A stretch of 64,000 nucleotides of DNA, from NCBI GenBank assembly GCA_020849275.1, contig JADLGO010000036.1:1-64000 (forward strand), written 5' to 3'. The notes beneath the pieces are model-generated. The model ran no database searches, was not told the origin of the DNA, and was given only the letters and a program-made list of their open reading frames with translations. Position 1 is the stretch's first letter; the number at the start of each line of letters is the position of its first letter. Position numbers and translations under genes: made by a program. Below are positions 1,434-52,124 of this stretch, piece after piece. Source of the DNA: Chthonomonadales bacterium (GTDB lineage Bacteria > Armatimonadota > Chthonomonadetes > Chthonomonadales > CAJBBX01).

Positions 1434-1442
1434 AGGGGGGTC

Positions 1443-12224: not shown

Positions 12225-12253
12225 ATTATAGCGCGAGCGGTCGATGGTGTCAA
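12225..12253 (-). promoter_or_regulatory. Consensus sigma-70 promoter inside the rfaE2 stop region
   Basis: On the reverse strand TTGACA (12253-12248), a 17-bp spacer and TATAAT (12230-12225) form a perfect consensus. The -35 box overlaps the rfaE2 stop codon. It would drive the 12174-to-3846 gene series. A small leader hairpin follows (12191-12197 pairing with 12204-12210). Confidence 0.8.
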
Positions 12254-13218: not shown

Positions 13219-13252
13219 GTTCGGGTTTCCGTGGTCGTGGCGCCCTGGGACG

Positions 13253-14224: not shown

Positions 14225-14251
14225 CAACGCGCGCTCCTTCCGGAGGTCGGC

Positions 14252-16358: not shown

Positions 16359-16395
16359 GGAGTGGGTCAGGCGCCGCCTGGTGGCACGGCGGCAG

Positions 16396-34973: not shown

Positions 34974-35867
34974 ATGCGCGTCGGAGTGGTTGGCCTGGGC
35001 GTGATGGGCAAGCCGATGGTGGAGCGCCTGCTTGCCACGGGGCACCGCGTCTTCGTGCATAACCGCACGCGCGAGAAGATGCGCGGGCTCGACGCGCTCG
35101 GCGCTCAGTGGGCCGATGCCCCGCGCGACGTGGCCGCGGCTAGCGAGGTCGTGCTGACGGTGGTGACGGATCCCGCCGCCGTCGAGGCCGTTTCGTTCGG
35201 CGACGCCGGCATCGCCGCCGGGCTCTCCGAGGGCGCGGTGCACTGCGACATGAGCACGGTGAGCCCGGCGGCCAGCCGCGAGATGGCGGAACGCTACGCC
35301 GCGGCCGGGCTTCGCTTCGTTCAGGCGCCGGTCCTCGGCAGCAAGCGGCAGGTTCTGGCAGGGGAGCTTCTGGTGTTCGCGGGCGGGGAGGCCGAAGCGA
35401 TCTCACGCTGCGAACCTGCCTGGCACGCCTTCTCACATCGCATCTGGCGCGTGGGCGCGCCGGAGCAGGCCGCCGCCGCCAAACTGGCCTGCAACATGCT
35501 GATCGCGCACATGATCCTCGGACTGGGCCAGTCTCTCCTCTTCGCGCGCTGCCACGGGGTCGACCCGGCGCGCCTGCTCGAGATCCTGGGCGCCTCGGCT
35601 CTCGGGGCGCCCATGTTCGCCAGCAAAGGCCAGACGATGGTCGGTGGCGACTTCGCCGCCAACTTCTACGTGCGGCACATGGTCAAGGATCTCACGCTCG
35701 CCGCCTCGGCGGCGGCGGAGTGCGGCCTCTGCATGCCGCTCAACGCGGCCAATCGCGAGCTGTTCGCGTCGGCCGTACGTCAGGGATGGGGCGACCTGGA
35801 CTACTCCGCGGTGGTTAAGGTGCTCGAAGGCCTCAACGGGCTCGGCGGCGCGACACCCGAGCGGTAG
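34974..35867 (+). CDS. 3-hydroxyisobutyrate dehydrogenase-family NAD(P)-dependent oxidoreductase
   Basis: A 297-residue beta-hydroxyacid dehydrogenase. MRVGVVGLGVMGKPMVERLL is the Rossmann motif, then VFVHNRTREKMRGLDALGA, HCDMSTVSPAASREMAERYA, and the substrate loop FVQAPVLGSKRQVLAGELLV. The catalytic Lys lies in AAAAKLACNMLIAHMILGLG. Likely oxidises a hydroxy acid; exact substrate unknown. GGAGGGGA precedes the ATG at 34974. Its last 35 bp overlap the end of the convergent glycosidase gene. Confidence 0.87.
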   Translation: MRVGVVGLGVMGKPMVERLLATGHRVFVHNRTREKMRGLDALGAQWADAPRDVAAASEVVLTVVTDPAAVEAVSFGDAGIAAGLSEGAVHCDMSTVSPAASREMAERYAAAGLRFVQAPVLGSKRQVLAGELLVFAGGEAEAISRCEPAWHAFSHRIWRVGAPEQAAAAKLACNMLIAHMILGLGQSLLFARCHGVDPARLLEILGASALGAPMFASKGQTMVGGDFAANFYVRHMVKDLTLAASAAAECGLCMPLNAANRELFASAVRQGWGDLDYSAVVKVLEGLNGLGGATPER

Positions 35868-38800
35868 CGGCGGCTGGACCTCCTGACCGGTGCAGGGCCC
35901 ATACGCGCGTGGCGTGCGCGGGCACGTCGACCGTGAACTCGGCGGCGCGCGTGGCCACGCGCCGCCCGGTTGTCGCGTCGAACACGCTCGCCCGCTCGGG
36001 GATTCGAACCCTCTTGCTGCCGCCGGTCACCGTATGCAGGCCAACGAAGCTCGCGTTGGCCGTCAGCACGTCGCCGGACGCCGCGTAGACGAACACGCCG
36101 GCATCCTCGTACAGCTTCCGCAGCGCGCCAGCCGGCATCGGCGCCGACGCGCAGTAGACCGCCGTGCTCCCCTGGATCCGCTTCCGCACGCAGGCCGCCT
36201 CGCCGCCCGCTGTGTAGCGCGCTAGAATCTCGGCGCCGCCCTCCTCCGGCACGAACGCCGGCGTCTGGCGGTCGTCGAATCCGAACGCCTCGGCGCCCGC
36301 GGCCGCGGTCAGGCCGCCTTCGGCGCGCAGGAGCATGGCCCGGCCATCCGGCCGAACGCCGATCTCGATGCCGGTGAGTGTTCGCATGGTTCTCGTTGAC
36401 AGTCCGGAGTCCGTCACGTAGCCCGGAGCGTAGAACCAGAGCGTGGTCGTACCGGGCTGTCGGGTGCGGCGCAGCACCGCGGCGCGCTGCGCGCCCGTGA
36501 GGTAGTAGCAGTTCAGCATCACGTACAGCCGGTAGGCCGGCATGCGCGGGTCGGCCAGGTCCTCCACCGTGTAGACGTCGAACGGTGCGCCCGCGCGGCA
36601 CATGGCCCCGACCTGGTCGACGAAGAGGCGCATGCCGATTCGGTCGCGGCCGGGACCGCGCCCGGCCATGTGGAACGCGGCCGCGGGGTCTGCAACGAGC
36701 GCCACCTGGGCCGTGCGGCGGCGGTCCATTCGCAGCGCCCGTTCTCCCCAGCGGTGCCCGAGAGCGATCTCGTGCCGGATGGCCGGGTCGCGGAACCAGG
36801 AGCCCTGCTGGTCCATGTACCAGACACCGGTGTTGTGCGTGAGGGCGTTCATCCACTCGCGCCGGATCACCGCGAGCGAGCCGGCCAGATCGCTGACGTG
36901 GGTGAACGCCGGGTCGGTGGCGAGGTGCGTCCTGTCGTCACCCTCGTCGATGAACAGCTTGCCGTGGAGCGCAGCCGCGGCCGGGAAATTGCGGAACAGG
37001 CCGTCCTCGCCGAGCCGACGGCGGGCGTAGGAGTGCGGACTGGAGACGGCGTCAACCCAGCGAGAGCGCAGAATGCGCGCGGGTGCTCGGTGATCGCCCT
37101 CCTGCGGCCAGTCGAGGTCGGGCCAGTACGCGTAGAAGACAACCGTGATGGCGCGCCCGCGCGTCTCCTCCTTCACGGTGCGGCAGAGCGCCTCGATGCT
37201 GTCGGCCGTCGCGTTGTGCATGGCCTCGTAGTAGTCGGCGGCCCAGCGCGACCGGGCCGGATCGCGGAAGACGCCGACGTCGCCGCGAAGGCGCTCCTCA
37301 ATGCCCGGGCACCGCACCGTGCCGAACTCGGCGTCCGGCTGGCCCCAGGCCGCGCGGAGCCGCGCGACGCTGCCGGCGTAGCGCCGTCGGGCGAACTCGC
37401 CAAGGTAGCGGCGCATCGGCTCGCTCGTGTCCGGGTAGTTCGTCGCACTCCAGGCGTGCCACTCACCGTAGATGCCGTTCGCCACGTGGTAGCCGATCAC
37501 CCGATCGCTGTACGGCGAGGCCGCGACGTGGCGCACGAACCGCCGCAGGGCCTCGCACGCGTCGCGGCGCCAGAGCCGTGAGGCGAAGGACTCGTGCTTC
37601 GTGCCTCCCCAGCCGTTGTCCACCCATCCGGTTCCATCGGCGAAGCGCACGGCCTCGAGCGGGTGCGCGTCGATCCACGACGGGGGCGCGCGCATCCAGA
37701 CGCGCGGAACGATCAGCGCGTCCGGGTCGGCCTGGAGCACCTCGAGGATCGTCTGGTCCGCCTCGGCGAAGTCGAATCGGCCAGGGCCCGTCCAGCCGAC
37801 GGGCAGGTCGAACGTCCAGATGTGGACGCCTCCGCGCCGCATGGCGCGCACCTCCTCGGCGCGCGGGCGCCACTGGAACACCCAGACGGGCGACACCGGA
37901 CGGCCGGCCACGAACAGCGTCGGCGCTCCATTGTGGGGCCCCACGCGGCAGGGGGTGACCGAGCCCGGCGGCCTGCGCGGCGTGACCTCCACGGAGGCGA
38001 TCGCGAAGCCGCGAATCTCGGCGCGGGTGTAGCGCGATCGGCGCAGGCCGGCCTCCAGGGTGTACCGGCCGGGCCGCGCGTAGGGCGACACCGGTATGCG
38101 TATGGGAGCGAGCGTGACGGCGTCGCCGGGTCTCCAGCGGTTCGGCGGCGGCGAGACCGCCACGGTGCGCGAGATCGTGGCCGCGCCCGGGGCGCTGAGG
38201 CGCACCGACAGCGGAGGACATCCGAGTACGCCGCGGCCCGCGCGCAGCGTCAGCCGCAGCACGATCTCGTCGCCGGCACGCAAGCGCGGCGTGGCGGACA
38301 CGCTCACGAGCTCGATAGGGTAACGGGGGCCCATGTAGACGAGCGGCAGGTCGCGCCACGGGCCCGCGGTGGGCGGGCTGCCGAGCTCCTTGCACGCCGA
38401 CCAGTTGTCATCGTCGTAGTCGGGCGACTTCCAGTCGGCCTCGGGTTCGGACGCGCGGAACCGCCACGAGCGGTTCGTCGCCACGCGGATAGGCGGGCGC
38501 TCGCCCGCGAAGGCGATGTCGACCTGGCACAGGAGGCCGCCGGGGTCGGCGGCGTTCACCACGCGCGCGGCGATGGCGTTCGCGCCAGCACGCAGGTAGG
38601 GCCGCAGGTCAACTCGATCCGTCCGCTTCCACCAGAAGCCGCCGCGGAAGACGGACTGGCCGTTGACGAACACCTCATACCCGTCGTCGCCGCTCATCTG
38701 GGCCCAGGCCGACACCGGGGCGGCGGGCAGCGTGACCTCCTTCCGGAAGAGCCCGAGGCTCCCGTGCGGAGAGACCTCCCCCCATATCCACTGTGCCGTC

Positions 38801-38898
38801 CACTTCTCGTCGGAGGGGTAGGCATCCGGCGCGGGCGCGCGCGCCCCGCGCGCGAAGAGCACGGCGAGCGCGGCGCCCAGGAGCGCGAGGGCCCGCAT
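35833..38898 (-). CDS. Large exported GH-A-clan (GH42-like) glycosidase
   Basis: A 1021-residue secreted enzyme. A signal peptide (LALLGAALAVLFARG) is followed by a sugar-binding jelly-roll (about 30-150; WIWGEVSPHGSLGLFRKEV, GDDGYEVFVNGQSVFRGG) as in rhamnosidase and beta-galactosidase accessory domains. A TIM barrel follows (about 340-750). GYHVANGIYGEWHAWSATNY holds a candidate acid/base Glu and LFIDEGDDRTH a candidate nucleophile Glu. A trimer-like domain and beta-sandwich come last. The pattern is close to GH42 but the family should be checked. Start ATG shares one base with the Dabb stop (TGATG). Its substrate is unknown. Confidence 0.75.
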   Translation of the reverse strand: MRALALLGAALAVLFARGARAPAPDAYPSDEKWTAQWIWGEVSPHGSLGLFRKEVTLPAAPVSAWAQMSGDDGYEVFVNGQSVFRGGFWWKRTDRVDLRPYLRAGANAIAARVVNAADPGGLLCQVDIAFAGERPPIRVATNRSWRFRASEPEADWKSPDYDDDNWSACKELGSPPTAGPWRDLPLVYMGPRYPIELVSVSATPRLRAGDEIVLRLTLRAGRGVLGCPPLSVRLSAPGAATISRTVAVSPPPNRWRPGDAVTLAPIRIPVSPYARPGRYTLEAGLRRSRYTRAEIRGFAIASVEVTPRRPPGSVTPCRVGPHNGAPTLFVAGRPVSPVWVFQWRPRAEEVRAMRRGGVHIWTFDLPVGWTGPGRFDFAEADQTILEVLQADPDALIVPRVWMRAPPSWIDAHPLEAVRFADGTGWVDNGWGGTKHESFASRLWRRDACEALRRFVRHVAASPYSDRVIGYHVANGIYGEWHAWSATNYPDTSEPMRRYLGEFARRRYAGSVARLRAAWGQPDAEFGTVRCPGIEERLRGDVGVFRDPARSRWAADYYEAMHNATADSIEALCRTVKEETRGRAITVVFYAYWPDLDWPQEGDHRAPARILRSRWVDAVSSPHSYARRRLGEDGLFRNFPAAAALHGKLFIDEGDDRTHLATDPAFTHVSDLAGSLAVIRREWMNALTHNTGVWYMDQQGSWFRDPAIRHEIALGHRWGERALRMDRRRTAQVALVADPAAAFHMAGRGPGRDRIGMRLFVDQVGAMCRAGAPFDVYTVEDLADPRMPAYRLYVMLNCYYLTGAQRAAVLRRTRQPGTTTLWFYAPGYVTDSGLSTRTMRTLTGIEIGVRPDGRAMLLRAEGGLTAAAGAEAFGFDDRQTPAFVPEEGGAEILARYTAGGEAACVRKRIQGSTAVYCASAPMPAGALRKLYEDAGVFVYAASGDVLTANASFVGLHTVTGGSKRVRIPERASVFDATTGRRVATRAAEFTVDVPAHATRVWALHRSGGPAAATARVSRRRAR

Positions 38899-40014: not shown

Positions 40015-40452
40015 TCAGTCACCGCCGGCGTGCGCCGGGCAGAGCGGGCGGCTCTCCGTGGGCTCCTCCAGTAGCGCCGCCATGGTGGTCGCCTTGAACG
40101 AGCTCTCGACCATCTCCATCGCGTCGTCCAGACGCCGGTGCAGCGGGCAGAGATTGGCGCCGTGGGAGGCGATGCCGAGCGGGCACCACGTGATGCGCTG
40201 CAGCGGATCAACCGCCTGCACGACCTCGTATACCGAGATGGTGTCGGACGGGCGCGCGAGCGCGAAGCCTCCGTGCAGGCCGCGCTGCGAGGAGATCAGG
40301 CCCGCGCGGCTGAGGCTCTGCAGGACCTTGCACAGATAGGGCAGGGGTACTCGCGTCACGGCGGCGATCTGCCGGGCGGTATGCGGGGAGTCGTCGCGGT
40401 CCGCCAGGTAGACGACCGCGCGCAGGGCGTACTCGGCGGTCTGGGAGATCAT
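40015..40452 (-). CDS. Rrf2-family transcriptional regulator (NsrR/IscR-like)
   Basis: A 145-residue winged-helix regulator: MISQTAEYALRAVVYLAD, RQIAAVTRVPLPYLCKVLQSL, RGLHGGFALARP. Cysteines at 41, 90, 102 and 138; Cys90 and Cys102 sit where NsrR has its first and third cluster ligands, but the middle Cys (about 96) is Ser, with His97 beside it. So a cluster, if present, has different ligation. The ATG at 40452 gives good spacing to GAAGGG; an earlier ATG at 40461 is too close. It is divergent from the cupin and di-iron repair genes, with a palindrome between, suggesting NO or redox control. Confidence 0.85.
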   Translation of the reverse strand: MISQTAEYALRAVVYLADRDDSPHTARQIAAVTRVPLPYLCKVLQSLSRAGLISSQRGLHGGFALARPSDTISVYEVVQAVDPLQRITWCPLGIASHGANLCPLHRRLDDAMEMVESSFKATTMAALLEEPTESRPLCPAHAGGD

Positions 40453-40475
40453 CGGTTTCATCCCTTCAATAATTC

Positions 40476-40497
40476 GGATATCAAGACCTTGACATCC
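40476..40497. promoter_or_regulatory. Candidate Rrf2 operator palindrome
   Basis: GGATATCAAG (40476-40485), AC, CTTGACATCC (40488-40497): the arms pair at 9 of 10 positions. The right arm contains the -35 box of the rightward promoter, so binding would block it and also lies close to the Rrf2 start at 40452. Strong candidate for the operator of the neighbouring Rrf2 regulator. Confidence 0.65.
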
Positions 40498-40518
40498 ATT
40501 TTACCACGGCGGTATAAT
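40489..40518 (+). promoter_or_regulatory. Promoter of the cupin/repair genes
   Basis: TTGACA at 40489-40494, 18-bp spacer, TATAAT at 40513-40518, followed by GGGC as in the purA and pdxS promoters. The -10 box covers an in-frame ATG (40517), which therefore cannot be the translation start. Confidence 0.8.
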
Positions 40519-40600
40519 GGGCGCAAGTACGATGACCGCTTCCGGCAGATCGGGCACGGCCCGGAGAGGGGCCGCGGGGCATACAGGAAGGACCGCCGCC

Positions 40601-40930
40601 TTGGCTGACTCGCTCTACTTCCAAGACGTGGCCGCACAGGTCGAGATCCCGACCGACGGCATCATCAGCCGCACCCTTCGAGCCGACGAGGCAGCGAAGG
40701 TGGTTGTGTTCGGCTTCGATCGCGGCCAGGAGCTCTCGGAGCACACGGCTTCCGTGCCCGCGATCGTCCACGTCCTGAGCGGCGAGGGCGACCTTACGCT
40801 GGGGGCCGACGCCCGACCGGCCGGGCCCGGCACCTGGGCCTATATGCCCGCACACATGCCGCACAGTGTCGTGGCCAGGACGCCTCTCGTAATGCTCCTC
40901 GTGATGCTCACCGGCGCCCGTGAGCTCTGA
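40601..40930 (+). CDS. Small cupin-domain protein
   Basis: A 109-residue single-domain cupin. GQELSEHTASVPAIVHVLSGEG and WAYMPAHMPHSVVARTP are the two cupin motifs; His residues at EHT and HMPH would bind a metal. Such proteins are often found beside nitrosative-stress genes. Start is TTG (40601), 8 nt after AGGAAGGA, because the apparent upstream ATG lies inside the -10 box of the promoter. It is the first gene after the Rrf2-controlled promoter and 34 bp before the di-iron repair gene. Confidence 0.75.
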   Translation: MADSLYFQDVAAQVEIPTDGIISRTLRADEAAKVVVFGFDRGQELSEHTASVPAIVHVLSGEGDLTLGADARPAGPGTWAYMPAHMPHSVVARTPLVMLLVMLTGAREL

Positions 40931-40964
40931 AGCCGCACGGCGCGCCGCCAAGGAAAGGACCCCG

Positions 40965-41702
40965 ATGAACGACATCCAAACGCAGACGACGATCGGACAG
41001 CTCGTCGCGGAGCGGCCCAGCCGCGCGCGCGTGTTCGAAACGCTCGGCCTGGACTACTGCTGCGGCGGCAAGGTCGCGCTCGACAAGGCCTGCGCCGAGC
41101 GCGGGCTCGATCTGGACTCGGTGGTTACCCGTCTGGAGGAGAGCGACGCCGGGCGTGCCGCCGAGACCGAGCGGGACCTGCGCAACGCCCCGCTCGCCGA
41201 GCTTGCGGACCACATCGTCGAGGTTCACCACGGCTTCCTCCGCCAGGAGTTGCCCAGGCTCTCGATGCTCTCCGCCAAGGTGGCCCAGGCTCACGGGCAG
41301 CGCTTCCCCGCGCTCGTGGAGGTGCAGGGCGTGTTCGAGGACATGCGAGCGGAGCTCGAGTCGCACACGATGAAGGAGGAGGGCGTCCTCTTCCCACTCT
41401 GCAAGCAGCTCGAGACCTCCACGGCGCTGCCGGACACCCACTTCGGGAGCGTGGCCAACCCGATCCGGGTGATGGAGCATGAGCACGACAGCGCCGGCGC
41501 CGCCCTGGCTCGGCTGAACAAGCTGACGGATGCTTACTCGACGCCCTCTGGCGTGTGCAACACCTACCGGGCGCTGATGGACGGTCTGGCGGAGTTGGAG
41601 CGCGACCTGCACCAGCACATCCACAAGGAGAACAACATCCTGTTCCCGCGTGCCCTGGCCGTCGAGGATGACCTGGCGCGCCGGACGGGTGCGCCGGCCT
41701 GA
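40965..41702 (+). CDS. ric: ScdA/YtfE-type di-iron iron-sulfur cluster repair protein
   Basis: A 245-residue RIC protein. The N-terminal ScdA domain holds TIGQLVAERPSRARVFETLG and LDYCCGGKVALDKAC (Cys32-Cys33). The hemerythrin-like domain carries the di-iron His/Glu ligands in DHIVEVHHGFLRQELPRL, SHTMKEEGVLFPL, MEHEHDSAGAALARL and LHQHIHKENNILFP. These proteins restore iron-sulfur clusters after NO or oxidative damage, or release NO-bound iron. AGGAAAGGA precedes the ATG at 40965. Divergence from an Rrf2 regulator is the classical NsrR-ytfE arrangement. Its neighbours downstream appear to process nitrate, a source of NO. Confidence 0.92.
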   Translation: MNDIQTQTTIGQLVAERPSRARVFETLGLDYCCGGKVALDKACAERGLDLDSVVTRLEESDAGRAAETERDLRNAPLAELADHIVEVHHGFLRQELPRLSMLSAKVAQAHGQRFPALVEVQGVFEDMRAELESHTMKEEGVLFPLCKQLETSTALPDTHFGSVANPIRVMEHEHDSAGAALARLNKLTDAYSTPSGVCNTYRALMDGLAELERDLHQHIHKENNILFPRALAVEDDLARRTGAPA

Positions 41703-41717
41703 CGACGGAACCGCGCG

Positions 41718-41745
41718 CCGGCGCTGGCGGAGCCGTCAGCGCCGG
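41718..41745 (+). terminator. Hairpin between ric and the YwiC-like gene
   Basis: CCGGCGCTG (41718-41726), a 10-nt loop, CAGCGCCGG (41737-41745). A perfect 9-bp stem, GC-rich and without U-tract; may terminate or partly attenuate transcription into the next gene. Confidence 0.45.
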
Positions 41746-41769
41746 TGCGTGGAGCCTCGAGGTTCCACG

Positions 41770-42639
41770 ATGCAGATCGCCGAAGGCACGGCAACGGCTG
41801 GGCGCCGGCGCGCCGAGTCCGGCGCGGTTCCCGTGCCGCGTGAGCACGGCGCGTGGGTGATTCTGGCGGTGCCGGCCGTGCTCGGCCTGGCCAGCGCTCC
41901 GGTTTCTCCCGATCCCTGGCTCACCCTGCTGCTGGCTGCCGCTACCGTGCTGGCGTTCCTCGGCCGGGAGGCGGTGGGGCGGATCATCCGGCGTCGGTCA
42001 AGCGCTTCGGACCGCCGCTGGGCCGCGGCGTGCGCGGCCGGCTGTGCGGCTGCAGCGCTGCCACTTCTGGCAGCCCGGCCGGCGCTCGCATGGGTCGCCC
42101 TGGCCGTCACGCTCCTCTTCGCCGGTCACTCTCTGCTGGTGGCGATCCCGGCGCGCAAGCGCCTTGACCGCAGCGTGCCCGGTGAGCTGCTCGGCGCGGC
42201 GGCGCTCTCGCTAGGGGCGGTGGCGGGCCGCGTGGTGGCGGGCGGCGCCTGGGACGGCGCGGCGTGGGTGCTCTGGCTGGCCTGCACGCTCTACTTCGCC
42301 GGCGGCGTCTTCTTCGTGAAGATGCTTCTTGCCGGGGTGAAGCTGCGGGAGCCCGTCACCCTGGCCGACCGGTTGCGAGTCGGTCGACGGTGCCTTGTCT
42401 ATCACGCGTTCCTCGTCTGTGCGGCTGTGGCGCTTGCGGCGATCATGGGCTCCTGGCCCGCATGGGGCCTGATCATCGCTGCGTTCGCGCCGGCCATCGT
42501 CCGCGCGGCTCGCGGCGTCGCGCGACTCTCGCCGCGCCTGCCGCGTCTCGTCCGAGTCGGCATCGGCGAGATGCTCTACACGTTCTGGTTCGCCGGCCTC
42601 CTCCTGGCGGCCATACGCGCGGCGGGCCACGCTAAGTAA
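41770..42639 (+). CDS. YwiC-like integral membrane protein
   Basis: A 289-residue polytopic membrane protein (about 9 helices). VPREHGAWVILAVPAVLGLA is the hallmark of YwiC-like proteins, and the later helices recall the UbiA fold. In Bacillus, ywiC lies beside nitrate respiration genes (ywiC-ywiD near narK and fnr), matching this location. Function unproven. A near-palindromic stretch (TGGAGCCTCGAGGTTCCA, 41750-41767) sits just before its ATG, where a ribosome binding site is expected. Confidence 0.75.
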   Translation: MQIAEGTATAGRRRAESGAVPVPREHGAWVILAVPAVLGLASAPVSPDPWLTLLLAAATVLAFLGREAVGRIIRRRSSASDRRWAAACAAGCAAAALPLLAARPALAWVALAVTLLFAGHSLLVAIPARKRLDRSVPGELLGAAALSLGAVAGRVVAGGAWDGAAWVLWLACTLYFAGGVFFVKMLLAGVKLREPVTLADRLRVGRRCLVYHAFLVCAAVALAAIMGSWPAWGLIIAAFAPAIVRAARGVARLSPRLPRLVRVGIGEMLYTFWFAGLLLAAIRAAGHAK

Positions 42640-42971
42640 GCGCCACACCGCCTCTCGACGCACCTCGCCACACGCAACTCCCCCACTTGCGGGCCCGCCG
42701 ATCGGCTACGCCGAGATCGACCACTCCGGTCGGGCCCGAGCCGCGTTCTGCCCAACGGAGCCGGCACGCCGCCCATCCTCAGGGCGCGATCGCCGCCCCC
42801 GGTACGAGCGGGAATCAGCCGCTCGTCGCAAGACGCTACGAAAACACGGCTCAGGCTGGTACTATGCATCCGAGTCACGTCCATGTTGCCGGGCTCGGTT
42901 GCCTCGGGCACCGATCGAGCGTGCTCCCGTGCGGTGCCTTGTGCGAGATCAAGCCTCACCGGTAGGAGCGG
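42640..42971. other. Intergenic region upstream of the ferredoxin-Rieske-narK unit
   Basis: About 330 bp without a convincing gene: the frames read as Arg/Pro-rich noise. TACTAT at 42863 is a possible -10 box but has no good -35 partner. No FNR-type TTGAT-N4-ATCAA was seen. TAGGAGCGG just before 42972 is the ribosome binding site of the next gene. Confidence 0.4.
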
Positions 42972-43583
42972 ATGGACAGCGTCTTCATTGTTGATCCGGC
43001 CAGATGTATCGGCTGCGAGGCGTGCGTGCAGGCTTGCGCGGAGTGCGGGACCCATCGCGGCGTCTCGATGATCCACCTCGAGTTCGTCGATCGCGCCCAC
43101 TCCGTTCAGACGACGCCGCAGGTCTGCATGCACTGCGAGGAGCCGACCTGCGCTCAGGTATGCCCTGCGGATGCGATCAAGCAGACGCCGGACGGCGTCA
43201 CGCAATCGTCGCTGAAGCCCCGCTGCATCGGCTGTCAGAACTGCGTGCTGGCCTGCCCATACGGGGTGCCGAAGTACCAGGTCGAGATCGACCAGATGAT
43301 GAAGTGCGACATGTGCTATGACCGCACGTCGGTGGGCAAGCGGCCGATGTGCGCCACGGTCTGCCCTTCCGAAGCGCTCTACTTCGGGCCGCTCGAGGAG
43401 TGGCGCGGCCGGAGGCGCGGCCGGCCGGTGGGCACGTGGCGCTTCGGGCGGCAGGTGGTGCGCACACGCGTAATGATGGTGATGCCCGAGTCCGTTGACC
43501 GGATCGATGTGTGGGCGGACAAGCGGCAGGGCGCCGGCAGGGAGGACAGGCTGGATGAGCGACGAGCCGAAGTGGCGGACTGA
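42972..43583 (+). CDS. Four-cluster 4Fe-4S ferredoxin-type electron transfer protein (NrfC/NarH-like)
   Basis: A 203-residue iron-sulfur protein with four complete Cys quartets: 12/15/18/22 ([11 protein letters not shown]), 52/55/60/64, 85/88/91/95 ([11 protein letters not shown]) and 112/115/127/131. That is the pattern of NrfC, DmsB and NarH-type subunits holding four [4Fe-4S] clusters. An extra Cys25 is present. No signal peptide, so it is cytoplasmic. RBS TAGGAG lies before the ATG. It overlaps the Rieske gene by 29 bp. It probably passes electrons from the membrane subunits to the molybdenum enzyme encoded downstream. Confidence 0.88.
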
Positions 43584-44043
43584 CTTCCCGATCCGCTGGG
43601 AGGGCGACAACTACACGACCCGGCGGGAGTTCACGAAGTTTCTGGTGCTTGCCTCGGGCGCCACGTTCCTGGGCAATGGCTACTTCGTGGTGAAGCGGCT
43701 CGACCAGCAGCGCGAGGAGCACCCGACCGTCGACGTGGCATCGGTCGGCGAGGTCCCGGTCGGGGGCGTTAAGCTATTCCGCTATCCCACCGAGGACATC
43801 CCGGCGGTGCTGATCCGTCTGGGCGAGGACGAGTACGTGGCCTTCCTGCAGCGCTGCACGCACCTGAGCTGCCCCGTACACTACATCCGGGAGCGCGAGC
43901 GCATTGAGTGCCCGTGTCACAACGGCGTGTTCGATGCTCGGACGGGCCGTGTCGTCGAGGGGCCGCCGCCCCGGCCGCTGCCGCGAATCCGGCTTCGCGT
44001 GGCCGACGGCCGGATCCAGGCCGAAGGGATTATGCCCGCATGA
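43555..44043 (+). CDS. Tat-type Rieske [2Fe-2S] protein
   Basis: A 162-residue Rieske protein. The N-terminus has [20 protein letters not shown], a twin-arginine motif with one hydrophobic helix, as in membrane-anchored Rieske subunits. The cluster ligands are C101-x-H103 (CTHLSCP) and C119-x-x-H122 (CPCHNG), with Cys106 and Cys121 placed for the usual disulfide. The GxFD region reads [20 protein letters not shown]. Such a protein takes electrons from quinol with a cytochrome b partner. Its start lies within the ferredoxin gene and its stop overlaps the next start as ATGA. Confidence 0.9.
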
Positions 44044-44288
44044 CCACCGGCGACTCGCGGCATCGGGACCTCGAGCGGCGCACTGCGCCCGTCACGATGC
44101 TGATGATGTGCGTGCTGCTGGTGCTGTTCATCCAGCTCTGGCTCGTGACCATCGCGCTCGAGGAGCACCTGGCCGCGCACTCGAGCCTTGCGGTCCCGAC
44201 CTTCCTGGCGTCGGGAGGCTGCTTCCTGCTCAATCTGTGGCTTCTGCGCTACCTCTACCGCGTGGAGCGGGGGCGCAAGGAGGGCTGA
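44040..44288 (+). CDS. Small membrane protein of the Rieske-narK unit (DUF6755-like)
   Basis: An 82-residue protein with two predicted helices: VTMLMMCVLLVLFIQLWLVT and PTFLASGGCFLLNLWLLRYL. It resembles a small uncharacterised membrane family (DUF6755, from memory) seen beside Rieske and nitrate genes. Probable structural or assembly subunit of the membrane complex. It starts by ATGA overlap with the Rieske stop and ends 1 bp before the narK start, so it is firmly in the operon. Confidence 0.65.
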   Translation: MTTGDSRHRDLERRTAPVTMLMMCVLLVLFIQLWLVTIALEEHLAAHSSLAVPTFLASGGCFLLNLWLLRYLYRVERGRKEG

Positions 44289-44289
44289 C

Positions 44290-45471
44290 ATGCGTGGTGC
44301 GAATCGGGCGCTCGCGTTCTCGAGCCTGGCGTTCGCCATCTCCTTCGCCGTCTGGGGGCTCATATCCCCGATGGCGAAGACGTTCCAGACGATGTACGGC
44401 CTGAGCGAACAGCAGGTGTGGGTGCTGATCGCGGCGCCCGTGCTGCTAGGCTCGGTGATGCGGCTGCCGATGGGGATGCTAGCGGACCGATGGGGCGGGC
44501 GGACGGTGTTCGGCGGCCTGCTCGTGTTCAGCGCGCTGCCGGCGACGATGCTCACGCTGTCCACCTCCTATCCCTCGCTGCTGGCGTGGAGCGTCGTGCT
44601 CGGCATGGCGGGCACCTCGTTCTCCATCGGCGTCGCGTTCACGTCGCCGTGGTTTCCGCCGGAGCGCCAGGGCTTCGCGCTGGGGGTCTACGGCGCGGGC
44701 AACATCGGCCAGAGCGTGGCGCTCTTTGGCGTACCGCTCCTCGTTGGCGTGCTTGGTGGCTGGCAGCGGGCCTACCTCGTCTTCGCCGCCGGCTCGCTGG
44801 TCTGGGGCGTGCTCTTCCTGTGGCAGGCGCGCGACGCGCCCCGCGCGCGCGCGCCGCGCACGTTCGGCGACATGCTGCGCTTGCTGGGGCGCAGCCCGAT
44901 GGCCTGGGTGCTGGCCGCCTTCTACTTCGTCACCTTTGGTGGCTTCGTGGCGCTGAGCATCGGCCTACCGAAGCTCCTCCAGGAGCTCTTCGGCCTCACG
45001 CGCCAGGACGCGGGGATGCGCGTGGCCGGCTTCGTCCTCCTGGCCACGGCCGCGCGTCCGGTTGGTGGGTGGCTGAGCGACCGCATCGGCGGTGCACGCT
45101 TGCTCGCGGGCGTGTTCGCCGTGGCCGGGGTGCTGGCCTTCGGCATGACACACGAGGGCATCCTTCTCTTCACCGTGGGGGCGCTCGGCATGGCCGCGTG
45201 CCTGGGGCTTGGCAATGGGGCCGTCTTCAAGCTCGTCCCGCAGCACTTCCCGCGCGACACCGGTACCGTGACGGGTCTTGTCGGCGCGATGGGCGGCCTG
45301 GGCGGCTTCTTTCCGCCGCTCGTGTTGGGCCTGATCAAGACCGCGACGGGCAGCTATGGAGCCGGGTTCGTGCTGCTCTCTGCCTTCTGTCTGGCGAGCC
45401 TGGGTCTGCTCTACGGCGCGCTCCTGCATCCTCGGGCACGATGGCGCGGCGCCAACGCGGCCGGGACCTAG
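44290..45471 (+). CDS. narK: NarK-type nitrate/nitrite transporter (MFS)
   Basis: A 393-residue major facilitator with 12 predicted helices. SVMRLPMGMLADRWGGRTVF contains the conserved Arg58 and A-motif. SIGVAFTSPWFPPERQGFAL then GVYGAGNIGQS form the nitrate signature of the NNP family. The second half has GGFVALSIGLPKLLQELFGL and GNGAVFKLVP-QHFPRDTG, the usual second signature. It would import nitrate or exchange nitrate for nitrite across the inner membrane. It directly follows the small membrane gene and precedes the cytochrome b gene by 22 bp. Confidence 0.93.
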   Translation: MRGANRALAFSSLAFAISFAVWGLISPMAKTFQTMYGLSEQQVWVLIAAPVLLGSVMRLPMGMLADRWGGRTVFGGLLVFSALPATMLTLSTSYPSLLAWSVVLGMAGTSFSIGVAFTSPWFPPERQGFALGVYGAGNIGQSVALFGVPLLVGVLGGWQRAYLVFAAGSLVWGVLFLWQARDAPRARAPRTFGDMLRLLGRSPMAWVLAAFYFVTFGGFVALSIGLPKLLQELFGLTRQDAGMRVAGFVLLATAARPVGGWLSDRIGGARLLAGVFAVAGVLAFGMTHEGILLFTVGALGMAACLGLGNGAVFKLVPQHFPRDTGTVTGLVGAMGGLGGFFPPLVLGLIKTATGSYGAGFVLLSAFCLASLGLLYGALLHPRARWRGANAAGT

Positions 45472-45493
45472 CGGCAGGTCAGGGGGCAGCGCG

Positions 45494-46537
45494 GTGCGCA
45501 AGCAACTCGATCTGGGCGCCACACGGGCGGGGGTTACGGCGGCGGGCCTGCACGTCATCGCCATCCTCGTTGGCTCGGGCGGGCTGAGGCACTTCGACCC
45601 GGCGCTCATCGCCTACACGAGCGCCTCCGTCATCGCCGCCTTCGGAATCGTCTATCGATACAGCGTTTGGCTTCAGCGCCCGCCGACCCGGCTCTACTGG
45701 CGGCGCGGTTGGGAGTTGTTCCTCAGGCCATCGCGGCTGGCGGGCAACGCCGCCTGGCTGGCTCGCCTGCTCTGGACGCAGGTCGTGGCGCAGACGTTCG
45801 TTGCGCGCCGCGACCGGGTGCGCTGGAGGGCACACCTGCTGATCTCCTGGGGATGTCTGGCGGCGTCGGCGGTCACGTTCCCGCTCGTGTTCGGCTGGGT
45901 GCACTTCGAGGCGGACCCGCGCGACCCGTCCGCCTACCGAGCCTTCGTGCTCGGAGTCGCCGCGGGCGTCTTTCCCGCCCACTCCCTGGTCGGCTGGCTC
46001 ACGTTTCACGTGCTGGACGTGTGCGCCGTCGCCATCCTCGTCGGCATGGCGTGGGTCTTCCGGCGCCGCATGTTCGACCGCGGCGCGATGAGCGTGCAGC
46101 AGTTCGGCATGGACTTCCTGCCGCTCGTCCTCCTGTTCGCCATCTGCGTCACCGGGCTGATGCTCACCGTTAGCAGCCTCTGGATGCGTGGCTACTCCTA
46201 CACCTTTCTTGCGATGTTGCACGCGTTCACGGTCATTGTGACGCTGCTCTACCTGCCCTTCGGCAAGTTCTTCCACGTCTTCCAGCGGCCGGCGAACCTG
46301 GGTGTCCACTTCTATAGACGAGAGGGTGACGAGACCGGCCAGACGGCCTGCGCGCGGTGTGGCTCCACCTTCGCCGCGGAGATGCACGTCCGCGACCTCG
46401 AGACCGTGCTCGATCAACTGGGAATCGACCAGGGCATGGAGGGCGGCGGGCACTACCAGCGTGTGTGCCCGCCTTGCCGCCGAAAGCTCGTCGCGCTGAC
46501 GCAACTCGATGCGATCGGCGGCCCCGGGTTCCTGTGA
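45494..46537 (+). CDS. NarI-like cytochrome b membrane subunit with C-terminal zinc ribbon
   Basis: A 347-residue protein with about six membrane helices. Candidate heme ligands are His114 (RAHLLISWG), His163 and His172 (PAHSLVGWLTFHVLD), His243 (MLHAFTVIVT) and His261 (KFFHVFQRP), as in NarI/HdrE-type quinol-oxidising subunits. The C-terminal 70 residues add a CxxC...CxxC ribbon (Cys286, 289, 325, 328: ACARCG and CPPCRR), not part of classical NarI. GTG 45494 follows AGGGGG by 7 nt. It would take electrons from quinol for the ferredoxin-type subunit and the molybdenum enzyme. Confidence 0.75.
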   Translation: MRKQLDLGATRAGVTAAGLHVIAILVGSGGLRHFDPALIAYTSASVIAAFGIVYRYSVWLQRPPTRLYWRRGWELFLRPSRLAGNAAWLARLLWTQVVAQTFVARRDRVRWRAHLLISWGCLAASAVTFPLVFGWVHFEADPRDPSAYRAFVLGVAAGVFPAHSLVGWLTFHVLDVCAVAILVGMAWVFRRRMFDRGAMSVQQFGMDFLPLVLLFAICVTGLMLTVSSLWMRGYSYTFLAMLHAFTVIVTLLYLPFGKFFHVFQRPANLGVHFYRREGDETGQTACARCGSTFAAEMHVRDLETVLDQLGIDQGMEGGGHYQRVCPPCRRKLVALTQLDAIGGPGFL

Positions 46538-46609
46538 ACCGAGGCCGGCGCGACCATGCGCCGCCGGGACATGCCCGGCGGCGCATGGATGCAAGCAGAG
46601 CGGAGCGCC

Positions 46610-47084
46610 CTACCGCCGGCGCCGCAGGAACGGCAGACCGCTGGCCCCGCCGCACAACTGCAACGCCAGGCTGCCAGGCCTGCTGGTTGGAGCCCACTGC
46701 GTAGTCGAGCGAGTCGGGCGACACGTAGGCGGTAGCCGAGTTCAGCACGAACGCCTGGAAGCTCAGCGTGGCCGACAGGACATCGCTCGGGATGACGAAC
46801 TCCTGGTAGAGCACGTGCGAGCCAGGGCCGCTCTGGTCGGTCATGGCTGCCCTGGCGCCCTCGGGAGGCGCTGGCACGACGAACAGGTTGACCGGCGAGC
46901 CCGTGCCGACCTGCAGGAGCCACGCGCCGCTGCCTCCCGGCTGGTCCAGGACCGTCCAGCCGGCGATCCCGGATTCGAAGCCCCCGTTGGTGACTAGCTC
47001 AACGGCGCAGGCCGGCTTCACGAGCGCGAGGCCGAGCATGGCGGCCACGCCCAACGCCAACCGTGTGGTGAGAGCGAGACGCAT
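46610..47084 (-). pseudogene. Collapsed PEP-CTERM-type secreted protein gene
   Basis: Reverse reading from the ATG at 47084 (after AGGAGGTG) gives a signal peptide (RLALTTRLALGVAAMLGLAL) and a PEP-CTERM-family N-domain: VELVTNGGFESGIAGWTVLD, AMTDQSGPGSHVLYQEFVIP and SLDYAVGSNQQ. Normally a second half and a Pro-Glu-Pro tail follow. Here, at about 46676, the reading shifts frame, and the other frame gives GSLALQLCGGASGLPFLRRRR then stop, a typical PEP-CTERM tail without PEP. An internal deletion with a frame change explains both parts. The unshifted frame continues without sense. Probably not functional. Confidence 0.7.
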
Positions 47085-47227
47085 CGAGACACCTCCTGTA
47101 GCGACATGAATTGCATGCAAGGGGCACTGTCGATCCGCCATGTGCGAGATGCGTGCCAGAATGGGCGCCTCGGGCACCGGGCAGCCTGGGCGGTTGGCGG
47201 GACGATGAGGCGAACGAGGAGAGGGCT

Positions 47228-49411
47228 ATGGCAAGACCACCGGCGCCGGTCGAGCGACTGATCGAGCAGTTCGGACCGCACCCACAGCACGCCCCGCCGG
47301 GGGGCTGGCATACCGGCAGCGAGCCAGATCGCCTCGTGCCCACGCACTGCTGCTTCTGCGGGCAGCAGTGCGGCATCGTCCTGAAGGTGAAGGACAACCG
47401 GGTCGTCGGGTTCGAGCCCCGCGAGGACTTCCCGTTCAACCGCGGCAAGCTCTGCCCCAAGGGCGTGAAGCGCTACATGCAGAACGAGCACCCGGACCGG
47501 CTGCTGCGGCCGCTCGCGCGCACCGGCGCCGGCTTCGCGCCGATCTCCTGGGACGAAGCGCTGGACCGGACGGCGCGGGCGATCCGGCGTATTCAGGGCG
47601 AGCACGGCCGTGACGCCTTCGCGATGCTCTCCGGGGTATCGCTCACGAACGAGAAGTCCTACCTGATCGGGAAGTTCGCGCGCCTCGCCCTCCAGACGGC
47701 GAACCTGGACTACAACGGGCGCCTCTGCATGGTCTCCGCTGGCGCCGGCAACAAGAAGGCGTTCGGCATCGACCGGGCCGCCAACCCGTGGGACGACATC
47801 GTGCTGGCCGACGTGATCCTGGTGGCCGGCGCCAACGTGGCGGAGTGCGCCCCGATCACGACGGACTACATCTGGCGGGCGCGCGACCGCGGGGCGAAGC
47901 TCATCATGGTCGACCCGCGCGTCACGCCGCTGGCCCGCACGGCGGACCTGCATATCCCCGTTCGGCCCGGCGGCGACGTGGCGCTGATGAACGGGATCCT
48001 GCACGTGGTGATCGCGCGCGGCTGGGTTGACCGCGGATTCGTGGGCGCGCATACGTCGGGATTCGCCGAAGTGGAGGACGCCGTTCGTGAGTATACGCCG
48101 GAGCGCGCGGGCGAGCTCGCCGGAGTCGATCCGGCGCTGATCGTTCGGGCCGCCGAGATGTGGGGCCCGGCGCACACGAGCTTCCTATTGCACGCCCGGG
48201 GTATTGAGCACCATACAAAGGGCGTCGACAACGTGCTCTCCTGCATCAACCTGGTTCTGGCCACGGGGCGCATTGGCCGGCCAGGCTGCGGATACGGCAC
48301 GATCACCGGGCAGGGCAATGGGCAGGGCGGGCGCGAGCACGGCCACAAGTGCGACCAGCTTCCGGGCAACCGCGACATCGAGAACCCGGAGCATCGGCGT
48401 TACATCGCCGGGGTCTGGGGGGTCGCCGAAGAGGAGATACCCGGCAAGGGCCACTCGGCGGAGGAGATCATCGAGCTCGCGCACGCGGGAGAGATTCGGG
48501 GGCTGCTCTCGATCTGCTTCAACCCGCTGGTGTCGCTCCCGGACTCCTCGTTCACCCGGGAGGCGCTCAACCGTCTGGAGCACTACACGGTCATCGACTT
48601 CTTCATGAGCGAGACCGCGCGCCACGCCGACATCGTGCTTCCGGGCTCGCTCCACGAGGAGGATGACGGGACGTCGACCAGCGTCGAGGGGCGCGTCATC
48701 CGCATCCGGCAGGCCGTCGATCCCCCTGGCGAGGCGCGCAAGGACTGGCGCATCCTGCTCGACCTTGCCCAGCGGCTCGGGCGCGGGCAGTACTTCCGCT
48801 ATGAGTCGCCCGCGGAGATGTTTGACGAGTTGCGCCTCGCCTCGCGCGGCGGAACGGCCGACTACTTCGGCATCACGTACGAGAAGGTCGAGCGCCAGCA
48901 AGGTGTCTTCTGGCCCTGCCCGTCCCTGGAGCACCCGGGCACTCCCCGGCTCTTCGAGGGCGGCCGGTTCCCGACGCCCGACGGCCGCGCGCGCTTCAAC
49001 GCGGTGCGCTATCGCCCGCCGGCGGAGCCGACGGACGCCGAGTATCCGATCGTACTAACCACCGGCCGCGTGGTGAGCCAGTACCTGAGCGGGAGCCAGA
49101 CCCGGCGTATTGGGGGCCTGCTGGATCAGTATCCCGAGCCGCTCGTCGAGATGCACCCGGCGCTCGCCGGGCGCCTCGGCGTGGGGGCGGGTGATACGGT
49201 GACGGTGGAGAGCCGGCGCGGCGAGGTGACGCTGAAGGCGAGTGTGGTGACGACGATCCGCGAGGACACGGTCTTCATCCCGTACCACTGGGCGGAGCGC
49301 CAGTCCGCGAACCTTCTGACGATCCGCGCACTGGACCCGGTGTCGAAGATCCCGGAGTTCAAGGTGTGCGCGGTACGCGTTCGGCGCGCCGATGGCGGCG
49401 GGGCCGCGTAG
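47228..49411 (+). CDS. Molybdopterin oxidoreductase, NapA/NasC-type nitrate reductase catalytic subunit
   Basis: A 727-residue enzyme. An N-terminal [4Fe-4S] site has C41-x2-C44-x3-C48 and C76 ([15 protein letters not shown]). The molybdenum ligand is Cys167 in [19 protein letters not shown], as in Nap[21 protein letters not shown] and [21 protein letters not shown] bind the two MGD cofactors, and the C-terminal domain has [18 protein letters not shown]. No Tat signal: probably cytoplasmic, like NasC/NarB. GAGGAGAGGG precedes the ATG. It belongs with the ferredoxin, Rieske, NarK and cytochrome b genes; an antisense PEP-CTERM remnant lies between. Nitrate as substrate is inferred, formate or other oxyanions are possible. 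Confidence 0.85.
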
Positions 49412-49420: not shown

Positions 49421-51961
49421 TCAGAACCACCCGCCTGCGCGCGGCGATCGGCCGGGCGACGGCGCATTGAGAACCTCGTGGATCGCGGTGAGCAACTCGA
49501 CGGTGGTGCACGGCTTGGGGAGGAAGCGGCAGGCTCCGGCCTGCAGAAGGTGCGTTACGGTCTCGGTCTCCGCGAAACCCGACATGAGGATCACGCGGAC
49601 GCCAGGGTCGATCGCGCGAAGTTGCCAGAAGGTCTCACGGCCGCCGAGCTCGGGCATCATCAGGTCGAGTAGCACGAGGTCGAACCGCCCAGGGTTCGCG
49701 CGGAAGACCTCCAGGGCGTCGCGGCCGCCGGGCGCCAGATAGACCTCAAGGCCGTGCGAGGCCAGCAGGTCGTGCATCAGCCCGCGCACCACCGGCTCGT
49801 CGTCGACGACCAGGATCCGCGAGCGCGACGGCGTTTGCGTCGCGGCCTCCGCGGTGGGCGCCTCCGTCGGGGGGGCCTCATCGACGGGCAGCACCACGGT
49901 GAAGGTCGCGCCGGACCCGGGCTCGGTCGTCACGTGGACGGTGCCTCCGTGCCGCGTGACGATGCCGTAGACCATGGCGAGACCCAGTCCGGTCCCCTCG
50001 CCGGGGCGTTTCGTGGTGAAGAACGGCTCGAACACGCGGGGCAGCACGGCTTCCCCGATGCCCTCTCCGGTGTCGGCCACCGCCACGAGGATCCCGGCCC
50101 GCGGATCGCCTCCTCCGGGCGGAGACCAGTTCTCCAGGTTGCGAGTCATCACCGTGAGTCGGCCGCCCTGTGGCATCGCGTCGCGCGCGTTCAGGCACAG
50201 GTTGACGAGCACCTGCTCGATCTGGGTGGGGTCCGCCTGCACGCGGCGCAGGTCCGGCGCGAGGTCAGTCTCGAGCGCGATGTGCTTGCCGATGCTGCGG
50301 CTCAGCAGCGAGGCGGCCTCCTGAACCACATCGTTCACGCTGACACTCTGCGCCTCGATGGGGCTGTTGCGCGCGAAGGTGAGCAGTTGCCTCGCGAGGT
50401 CGGCGGCGCGCCTCCCGGCCTCCTCGATGGTGACCGCGTGGCGGTGGATGGGGCTGTCGTCCGGCGTCTTGCGCCGTATGAGGGCTGCGTAGCCGATCAC
50501 GCCGGTGAGGTGGTTGTTGAAGTCGTGTGCGATCCCACCCGCGAGCGTGCCCAGGCTGTCCATCTTCTGCGCCTGAACGAGTTGCTGCTGAAGCGCCTTC
50601 TCGCCGGTCACGTCGCGGGCCAGCACGCGGGCCCCGCGGTACTCGCCATCGGCGTAGGCCGGCACGGCGCGCACCGAGGCGCTCAGCACGCTGCCGTCGC
50701 GGCGGCACAGGTCCGCCTCCACCGTGCACGACTCCGCCTGGCCGCGCGCGAGGAGTGCCATCCCCTCCGCCAGGCGGTCGCGCGCGCGACCCGGCACCAC
50801 ATAGGCCGTCCAGTGTGTGCCAACGAGCTCGGCCTTCGCGAAGCCCAGCTCCCGCGCCTCCGTGGCGTTGCACGAGACGATGGTCCCCGCCGCGTCGAGC
50901 AGGTGGTACATGTCCGGGGCCTCGTCGTAGAGCGCCATGTACTCGCGTTCGGAGGCCCGGGTGCGCTCCAGGATGTCGGCGCCGGCCAGCGCGAGCGCGG
51001 CCTGCCGGGCGATGGCCTCCACCAGCGCGATGTCGTCAGCCGTCCAGTGACGGCGTCGGTTGCACTGGTGCACGCCGATCAGCGCACCCAGTCGGCCCGC
51101 CGCAAGGAGCGGCGCGACCAGCGTGGAGCGGACGGCCGAGGGCGCGTAGATGCGCTGGTAGACGCCGGCTGTGCGCGGGTCGGTCGCCACATCGCCGATG
51201 GCCACCACCTGGCCGGCCAGGACGCGGTGCAGCACGTGCGGCGAGACCTCGGCGGGACGGTAGGCGCCCGCGACGGCTGGCCAGTCTCCGCGCCTCGCCT
51301 CGGTGACGACGGTCAGGTCGCCACCGCTGACGCTGGCGAAGTAGCAGCGGCTGGCACGCAGCGCTCGGAGCGCCGCGCCGACCGTGACCAGGGCGATGCG
51401 GTCACGGTCGAGCGAGCGCGCGAGTTGGCGCGCGAGGGCGTTTTCGATGCGCTCCTGGCGCGCGCGCACCCGCATGCGCTCGTAGCGCGTCGCGTTCTCT
51501 ATGCCCAGACCAAGCATGGCGCCGACGATCTCGAGCAGGCATCGTTCGGCGGCGGCGACGGGCCGGGGAGTCTCGGCGATCAGCGTCACGACGCCGACAT
51601 CGGCGCGTCCGGCGCGGAGGGGGAAGGCGAGTCGCGTGGCCTGGTGGCGATCGGCTCCGGCTACGGGCGCGCAGTCAAGCGCCACGGTGCCCGTGGCCCA
51701 GGCACGCCCGGCGGTGCCCGCGCCGCGAATGCACGTGCGCTCCCGGCGCCGGACCCAGGCGGCGCGCCGGCCGCCGGCGAGGACCAGGGGGGCCAGGCCG
51801 TCGGCGGGGTCGGCCAGGTACACGGCATACGTACCGAAGCCCAGGCGCTCGGAGATGCGCCTGCACGACTCGCGCAGCAGCCGACGCGGCATCAGCGTGC
51901 GGCCCGCCGACTCGGCCACGGAGGCCAGTACCTCAAGCTCCCCCTGCAAGGACTCCTGCAC
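49421..51961 (-). CDS. Hybrid sensor histidine kinase with two GAF, PAS, kinase and receiver domains
   Basis: An 846-residue cytosolic protein without membrane helices. A GAF domain (about 10-160), a second GAF (about 180-335; SRCYFASVSGGDLTVVTEAR), a PAS (about 345-460; LYDEAPDMYHLLDAAGTIVS) and a HisKA/HATPase core follow. The phospho-His is His479 (GGIAHDFNN), with ADTGEGIGEAVLPRVFEPFF and GTGLGLAMVYGIV. A C-terminal receiver has Asp766 in LVLLDLMMPELGGRE. The GTG at 51961 follows GGGAGG. It ends only 10 bp from the convergent nitrate reductase gene; no cognate DNA-binding regulator is next to it. Signal unknown. Confidence 0.9.
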   Translation of the reverse strand: MQESLQGELEVLASVAESAGRTLMPRRLLRESCRRISERLGFGTYAVYLADPADGLAPLVLAGGRRAAWVRRRERTCIRGAGTAGRAWATGTVALDCAPVAGADRHQATRLAFPLRAGRADVGVVTLIAETPRPVAAAERCLLEIVGAMLGLGIENATRYERMRVRARQERIENALARQLARSLDRDRIALVTVGAALRALRASRCYFASVSGGDLTVVTEARRGDWPAVAGAYRPAEVSPHVLHRVLAGQVVAIGDVATDPRTAGVYQRIYAPSAVRSTLVAPLLAAGRLGALIGVHQCNRRRHWTADDIALVEAIARQAALALAGADILERTRASEREYMALYDEAPDMYHLLDAAGTIVSCNATEARELGFAKAELVGTHWTAYVVPGRARDRLAEGMALLARGQAESCTVEADLCRRDGSVLSASVRAVPAYADGEYRGARVLARDVTGEKALQQQLVQAQKMDSLGTLAGGIAHDFNNHLTGVIGYAALIRRKTPDDSPIHRHAVTIEEAGRRAADLARQLLTFARNSPIEAQSVSVNDVVQEAASLLSRSIGKHIALETDLAPDLRRVQADPTQIEQVLVNLCLNARDAMPQGGRLTVMTRNLENWSPPGGGDPRAGILVAVADTGEGIGEAVLPRVFEPFFTTKRPGEGTGLGLAMVYGIVTRHGGTVHVTTEPGSGATFTVVLPVDEAPPTEAPTAEAATQTPSRSRILVVDDEPVVRGLMHDLLASHGLEVYLAPGGRDALEVFRANPGRFDLVLLDLMMPELGGRETFWQLRAIDPGVRVILMSGFAETETVTHLLQAGACRFLPKPCTTVELLTAIHEVLNAPSPGRSPRAGGWF

Positions 51962-52124
51962 GGCGGGCCTCCCGCGGGCGTCTGGCACCCGGCGAACCGC
52001 GCTGTGAGTTGGGTCGCGGACCGCACGGGGTGACGATCTCTGCCGCGCGGTTCGCCGGGTACACTTTTGGTTCCTGCCTCCCCGCGAGTATGGCAACGCG
52101 GCCGCAGGCGTTGACGCGCGTGAG

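Follow-up and report, generated by a model that had tools for sequence, protein, structure and literature searches.

A widespread gene set joining a Nas-type molybdenum enzyme to a Rieske protein and a NarI-fold cytochrome b: a candidate quinol-linked nitrate reductase of bacteria

Several described systems bring nitrate, quinol and Rieske proteins together in different ways. In NarGHI, electrons pass from quinol to nitrate through a NarI-fold membrane cytochrome b, a four-cluster Fe-S subunit and a cytoplasmic nitrate reductase holding molybdenum in a bis(molybdopterin guanine dinucleotide) cofactor (Mo-bisMGD), and a narK gene adjoins. The Nas enzymes (NasC, NasA or NarB, as in Paracoccus, Bradyrhizobium and Deinococcus gobiensis) also have NarK as a neighbor and lack a twin-arginine translocation (Tat) signal; their known electron donors are NAD(P)H flavoproteins, NirD-type Rieske proteins or ferredoxin, and they are usually encoded with nirA or nirBD. 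Arsenite oxidase, AioBA, pairs a Mo-bisMGD enzyme with a Tat-signaled Rieske protein. A nitrate reductase is linked to a Rieske protein and a cytochrome b in the archaeal pNar of Haloferax and Methanoperedens (PMC4683180), Rieske and cytochrome b genes accompany those of a bacterial nitrate reductase in the Nap cluster of Caldithrix abyssi (PMC5317091), and nasC of Bacillus bataviensis is linked to a gene for a Rieske-type 2Fe-2S protein outside a nirBD operon (PMC3475470). Here we analyze a six-gene cassette in a window of 64,000 nucleotides (positions 1 to 64,000 of contig JADLGO010000036.1, assembly GCA_020849275.1) from a Chthonomonadales bacterium of the phylum Armatimonadota. The cassette encodes a ferredoxin, a Rieske protein, a small membrane protein of family DUF6755, NarK, a cytochrome b and a molybdenum enzyme, which we call MoA. 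We think it fairly likely that these proteins form a membrane-bound, quinol-oxidizing nitrate reductase with a cytoplasmic catalytic subunit of Nas type, and the cassette probably enables nitrate respiration in bacteria so far believed incapable of it. The gene set appears to be unnamed so far, no published description having been found in the open-access literature, with subscription journals outside our scope.

All six genes lie on the forward strand. The gene of the ferredoxin (42972-43583; PF13247, 77 bits), a DmsB/FdnH-like protein with four [4Fe-4S] clusters and without a signal peptide, overlaps that of the Tat-targeted, membrane-anchored Rieske [2Fe-2S] protein (43555-44043; PF00355, 48 bits), which in turn shares four bases with the DUF6755 gene (44040-44288; PF20540, 56 bits). 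The gene of the NarK-type transporter, a nitrate/nitrite carrier of the major facilitator superfamily (44290-45471; TIGR00886, 220 bits, under the cut-off of 311.7), begins directly afterwards, so that these four genes look cotranslated. The cytochrome b gene follows with a GTG start (45494-46537) and, after a gap of 690 bp, the gene of MoA (47228-49411), a Mo-bisMGD catalytic subunit of NasC type with one [4Fe-4S] cluster; in most relatives, the last two genes are adjacent.

Judged by curated cut-offs, membership of the cassette in NarGHI and in Nap was rejected, and its gene content likewise departs from that of classical Nas, as an earlier note on this DNA had maintained. With NarGHI it shares the general plan of the predicted complex and the neighboring NarK, and the same quinol-to-nitrate route is expected, but the catalytic subunit is of Nas type (∼730 amino acids) instead of NarG, the ferredoxin falls far under the NarH cut-off, the cytochrome b is under the NarI Pfam cut-off and has a C-terminal CxxC...CxxC tail, and the Rieske and DUF6755 proteins are extra. 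Between 40015 and 49411, where no NarJ-specific search was made, no gene for NarJ can be seen. Nas has the same catalytic family and active-site residues, whereas the cassette replaces the known Nas donors by a membrane cytochrome b and a Tat-targeted Rieske protein and has no adjacent nitrite reductase. The catalytic subunit of pNar is NarG-type, carries a Tat signal and acts outside, and its Rieske and cytochrome b proteins are bc1-like; the C. abyssi cluster differs by its periplasmic NapA, its bc1-type cytochrome b and the lack of a nitrate transporter; at the B. bataviensis locus, the other partner is a hybrid Fe-S protein, and no cytochrome b or four-cluster ferredoxin has been reported. 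As for AioBA, it lacks both a four-cluster ferredoxin and a cytochrome b subunit, and the cassette proteins stay under both Aio cut-offs (TIGR02694 for AioB, 57 versus 96 bits on the Rieske protein; TIGR02693 for AioA, 168 versus 359 bits on MoA).

When one genome per species was scanned with a profile, at least 531 relatives of the cytochrome b were matched, the best 80 loci being used for neighborhood counts. These 80 loci contain homologs of the cytochrome b (79), MoA (78), the Rieske protein (69), the ferredoxin (66), DUF6755 (54) and NarK (51) and come from Acidobacteriota, Armatimonadota, Planctomycetota, Myxococcota, Chloroflexota and others; the entire set was found separately on a Deinococcus plasmid, which adds Deinococcota. 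Altogether, the cassette genes cooccur in at least 8 phyla and in hundreds of bacterial genomes, and recurrence across phyla, which the earlier note had proposed looking for in relatives, places the arrangement far beyond chance. Within Armatimonadota, the cytochrome b was found in 61 of the 291 genomes searched, the nearest named relatives of the window's cassette being Chthonomonadaceae and other members of the phylum. The order is ferredoxin-Rieske-DUF6755-NarK-cytochrome b-MoA in the window's relatives and cytochrome b-MoA-ferredoxin-Rieske-DUF6755 in Acidobacteriota, Planctomycetota and Myxococcota; because the order varies, the association points to a functional tie and not to mere common descent of one segment.

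The best family model for MoA is that of NasC (NF047855, 826 bits against a cut-off of 1100), ahead of a formate dehydrogenase model (607 bits) and of the Nap model TIGR01706 (286 bits against a cut-off of 930). MoA was absent from the NarG (TIGR01580) matches at 1e-150, and NarG was absent from the 25 best NCBIfam matches of MoA. Since the best PDB sequence matches, and most of them, are formate dehydrogenases, the active site was examined. In formate dehydrogenases, the residue after the active-site Cys or Sec is His or Gln, and RGQ, RGE or RGH is present as well (PMC8808070). MoA and the cassette relatives compared with it have Cys-Met in all cases and TGQ..G(G/A)RE(H/Q)G in nearly all, a pattern shared with NirBD-linked Nas and largely with NapA of E. 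coli, and the Cys-Met and TGQ..GREHG of the window's MoA align with those of D. gobiensis Nas, Paracoccus Nas and Escherichia coli NapA. In a quick tree with long reference branches, from which we therefore take nothing but the separate position of the cassette clade, 66 cassette MoAs group together beside the Nas of D. gobiensis, whose gene adjoins nirBD, and apart from the formate dehydrogenases. Without the C/U-H and RGQ signature and with this placement, identity with a formate dehydrogenase was rejected; by its residues, MoA is to be classed as having the active site of a nitrate reductase, and the clustering with formate dehydrogenases that the earlier note had named as a threat to its proposal was not seen. 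A role on another substrate, formate or else, to which the PDB matches could point, is very improbable, as is operation in reverse as a nitrite oxidase, a direction in which NarG-type relatives can run: the His and Arg essential in formate dehydrogenases are replaced in MoA, NarK is the commonest transporter at cassette loci, and we know of no nitrite oxidase with a Nas-type subunit.

The window's Rieske protein carries the sequence TTRREFTKF, and the Tat motif RRx[FLM]x[KR]F is present in 76 of its 77 relatives, the exception being cut by a contig end; the CTHLxC...CPCHxG ligands and both extra cysteines are found in 77/77. Gly and Phe occupy the positions held by Ser and Tyr in bc1 Rieske proteins. 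Changes at these positions lower the potential of bc1 Rieske proteins, but the opposite substitution, Phe to Tyr, was without effect in arsenite oxidase (PMC3758308), which is why we assign no firm potential. Downstream of the likely start, a Tat signal is absent from all 66 cassette MoAs, in agreement with the earlier note, but this alone does not prove a cytoplasmic site, since the Tat signal of a partner can carry a protein across the membrane. AioA also lacks a Tat signal of its own. By analogy with AioBA, the near-invariant Tat motif of the Rieske protein, which has AioB among its closest solved relatives, might therefore export MoA and the ferredoxin, nitrate then being reduced outside. 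We regard this arrangement as quite improbable, given that the Rieske protein has a long inner N terminus, a hydrophobic segment and no evident cleavage site, like the anchored Rieske proteins of bc type, and that an anion transporter, for which an outside enzyme would have no need, is encoded at nearly all loci: NarK, a SLAC1-type protein or an HPP protein lies within 8 kb in 71 of the 76 loci having the cytochrome b, MoA and the Rieske protein. Where NarK is missing, a membrane protein of the SLAC1 or HPP family takes its place. Channels of the SLAC1 family are permeable to nitrate, and the HPP proteins of plants and cyanobacteria transport nitrite, so that three unrelated transporter families seem to fill one role. 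This recurrent transporter is the best evidence for nitrate reduction in the cytoplasm.

The ferredoxin of the window has 17 cysteines, enough for four [4Fe-4S] clusters, and the 16 cluster cysteines plus the extra one are kept in 46 to 47 of 49 relatives. His122, His251 and His269 of the cytochrome b are present in 88/88 relatives, and a fourth position is His (His180) in 61/88 and Asn in 26/88. NarI has two histidines 18 residues apart, the same spacing as between two of the invariant histidines here. The predicted model of the cytochrome b (mean predicted local distance difference test score, pLDDT, of 87.6) matches EtfD (Z 11.7) and NarI (Z 10.6) ahead of the next entries (7.9), at Z values that helical bundles in general can also reach; a fold search gave weak E-values with EtfD and NarI leading, and a profile of the family found no sequence match in the PDB at an E-value of 1. 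The designation "NarI-like" of the earlier note thus holds for the predicted fold but not at the level of Pfam, where Nitrate_red_gam (PF02665) reaches 18.1 bits, short of its gathering score of 22.9. The CxxC...CxxC tail (window positions 46340-46520) occurs in 85 of the 88 relatives and is lost in one family of the phylum (f15). Positive charge is concentrated in the loop that joins helices 2 and 3, with little in the one joining helices 3 and 4; together with the order of the helices, this suggests one haem near each membrane face in the model.

This anatomy of the cytochrome b points to a link with quinol. Our current working hypothesis is that quinol would be oxidized where the NarI-fold cytochrome b faces outward, and that the haem or haems of this protein would take the electrons across the membrane to the ferredoxin with its four clusters, placed at the inner face. 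The ferredoxin would hand them to MoA, first to the [4Fe-4S] cluster and then to Mo-bisMGD, for the reduction of nitrate to nitrite. NarK, or the SLAC1-type or HPP protein elsewhere, would bring nitrate in and let nitrite out, and the Tat-anchored Rieske protein, facing outside, would probably participate in the oxidation of quinol. A bolder view, at present rather doubtful, takes the cassette for an additional class of respiratory nitrate reductases, present in at least 8 phyla. In this view, a NarI-fold cytochrome b would have gained a cytoplasmic enzyme of Nas type as its partner, and the Rieske protein at the outer face would divide the electrons of quinol as a bc complex does, one share going to the cytochrome b and the other to a second acceptor.

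Several points weigh against a quinol-linked respiratory enzyme. The complex itself is a putative one; the scores of NasC and NarK lie under their curated cut-offs; the second haem of the cytochrome b is uncertain, because of the Asn at the fourth ligand position in part of the family; and conservation may be flattered by the sampling of the best 80 of at least 531 relatives. Moreover, contig C65 of the window's genome encodes a NarG, so that this genome has another candidate nitrate reductase besides the cassette, and matches to NIR_SIR (PF01077), which include sulfite reductases, are found in 18 of the 61 cassette genomes of the phylum and in 23 of the 31 from other phyla, so that assimilation could occur in places.

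The last point bears on an alternative reading, in which the cassette is an assimilatory Nas that draws on the quinol pool while a sirohaem reductase encoded elsewhere turns nitrite into ammonium. NasC being the closest family and the sister enzyme in the tree lying beside nirBD, this reading has some appeal, and nitrate reductase genes of Acidobacteria that belong to neither Nar nor Nap have indeed been read as nasA (PMC5900883). We nevertheless consider it unlikely, as 43 of the 61 cassette genomes of the phylum are without NIR_SIR and no nirBD or nirA cluster was among the recurrent neighbors of the 80 loci, whereas NO-response genes were. The window's genome, which is 99.9% complete, had no match to NIR_SIR, NrfA or NirK in searches that did not extend to NirS, octahaem reductases or other nitrite sinks; with neither a sirohaem reductase, NrfA nor NirK, assimilation by the cassette is unlikely in this genome. 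Among the 61 cassette genomes, NrfA was found in 15, and 33 have neither NrfA nor NIR_SIR. A strong link of the cassette to either reductase was rejected: cassette genomes carry them no more often than other genomes, with an odds ratio of 0.8 for NIR_SIR.

If the cassette is indeed a quinol-linked reductase, many bacteria of soil, sediment and wastewater thought to be without a respiratory nitrate reductase could reduce nitrate to nitrite with quinol, bacteria listed as mere nitrate assimilators from a catalytic gene called nasA or nasC could be quinol-linked reducers, and counts of nitrate reducers in metagenomes would change. It would also mean that a swap of partners can bring a catalytic subunit of assimilatory type into a membrane complex. 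The proposal bears on the puzzle of two Acidobacteria that were reported to make nitrite from nitrate and in whose genomes no Nar or Nap was found (PMC5900883). A link to the nitrate-to-nitrite phenotype of Granulicella mallensis was not supported, the cytochrome b being present in 5 of 28 Granulicella genomes; other Acidobacteria remain candidates.

Upstream of the cassette, four genes complete the ten of 40015-49411 that the earlier note had listed, all of which are present according to profile matches. An Rrf2-family regulator (40015-40461, reverse strand; PF02082, 103 bits) diverges from a nitric oxide (NO)-repair block on the forward strand, made up of a Cupin_2 protein (40517-40930; PF07883, 35 bits), the RIC (ScdA/YtfE) di-iron protein for Fe-S repair (40965-41702; TIGR03652, 248 bits against a cut-off of 204.7) and a YwiC-like membrane protein with weak similarity to UbiA (41770-42639; PF14256, 72 bits). 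The starts of RIC, the YwiC-like protein and all cassette proteins except the ferredoxin were refined by reading the sequence. A gap of 332 bp separates the block from the ferredoxin gene, so that a single operon is only putative; "one block", as the earlier note put it, is right for gene content.

These four genes are optional neighbors of the cassette. RIC lies within the fetched flanks in 21 of the 80 loci, which also include Crp/Fnr regulators (12), NnrS-like proteins (10), hemerythrins (8) and similar cupins (5), and the same Rrf2 subgroup is found near the cassette in several other loci. In 8 of the 19 RIC-bearing cassette genomes of the phylum, RIC is at most 15 kb from the cytochrome b, versus ∼0.1 expected. 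The link to NO is therefore real, far above chance and optional, and the earlier note's wording of a "built-in NO defence" is too strong: what stands of its reading is the set of Rieske protein, NarI-fold cytochrome b, ferredoxin and Nas-type enzyme, which is real and widespread. RIC, NnrS, hemerythrin and the Rrf2 and Crp/Fnr regulators would handle NO arising from nitrite. NasC of Bradyrhizobium itself yields NO and is cotranscribed with an NO detoxification protein (PMC4724949), a plausible reason for the link. NsrR was rejected as the identity of the Rrf2 protein (NF008240, 59 versus 182 bits), which has a conserved C-x11-C-x2-H and whose relatives keep two cysteines, with a middle position other than Cys; the three cluster cysteines of NsrR are not kept. 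At one locus, L129 (G099, 373-3334), a MobA-like protein, a Crp/Fnr-type regulator and an NnrS-like protein are encoded divergently to the MoA gene.

Some further observations concern other loci and the surroundings of the cassette. In the MoA tree, Armatimonadota and Myxococcota MoAs (L117 and L105) are nested within groups of other phyla, which suggests, from tree position, horizontal transfer of the cassette. An acidobacterial locus (L077, 262-8361) has, ∼2 kb before the cassette, a NarGH/nitrite-oxidoreductase-like pair (a molybdenum enzyme of 1147 amino acids and a ferredoxin of 382) with a Rieske protein of its own, and at L131 (G008, 12972-16828), a YwiC-like gene beside the cassette is followed by two more molybdenum-enzyme fragments and a ferredoxin. 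Inside the 690-bp gap of the window lies a decayed reverse-strand open reading frame (46545-47084) with a signal peptide and a PEP-CTERM-like end, the latter in another frame; a Pfam search gave no match for it, nor for a 1021-amino-acid protein encoded on the reverse strand at 35833-38898. Convergent to MoA is a hybrid GAF-PAS histidine kinase with a receiver domain (49421-52096, reverse strand), which may be unrelated. Finally, contig C50 of the window's genome carries a second cassette, more divergent than the first (L126, G000:C50:40000-58000, 4282-12486), adjoining the gene of a 552-amino-acid protein in which a DUF1858/ScdA_N-like domain is fused to NnrS.

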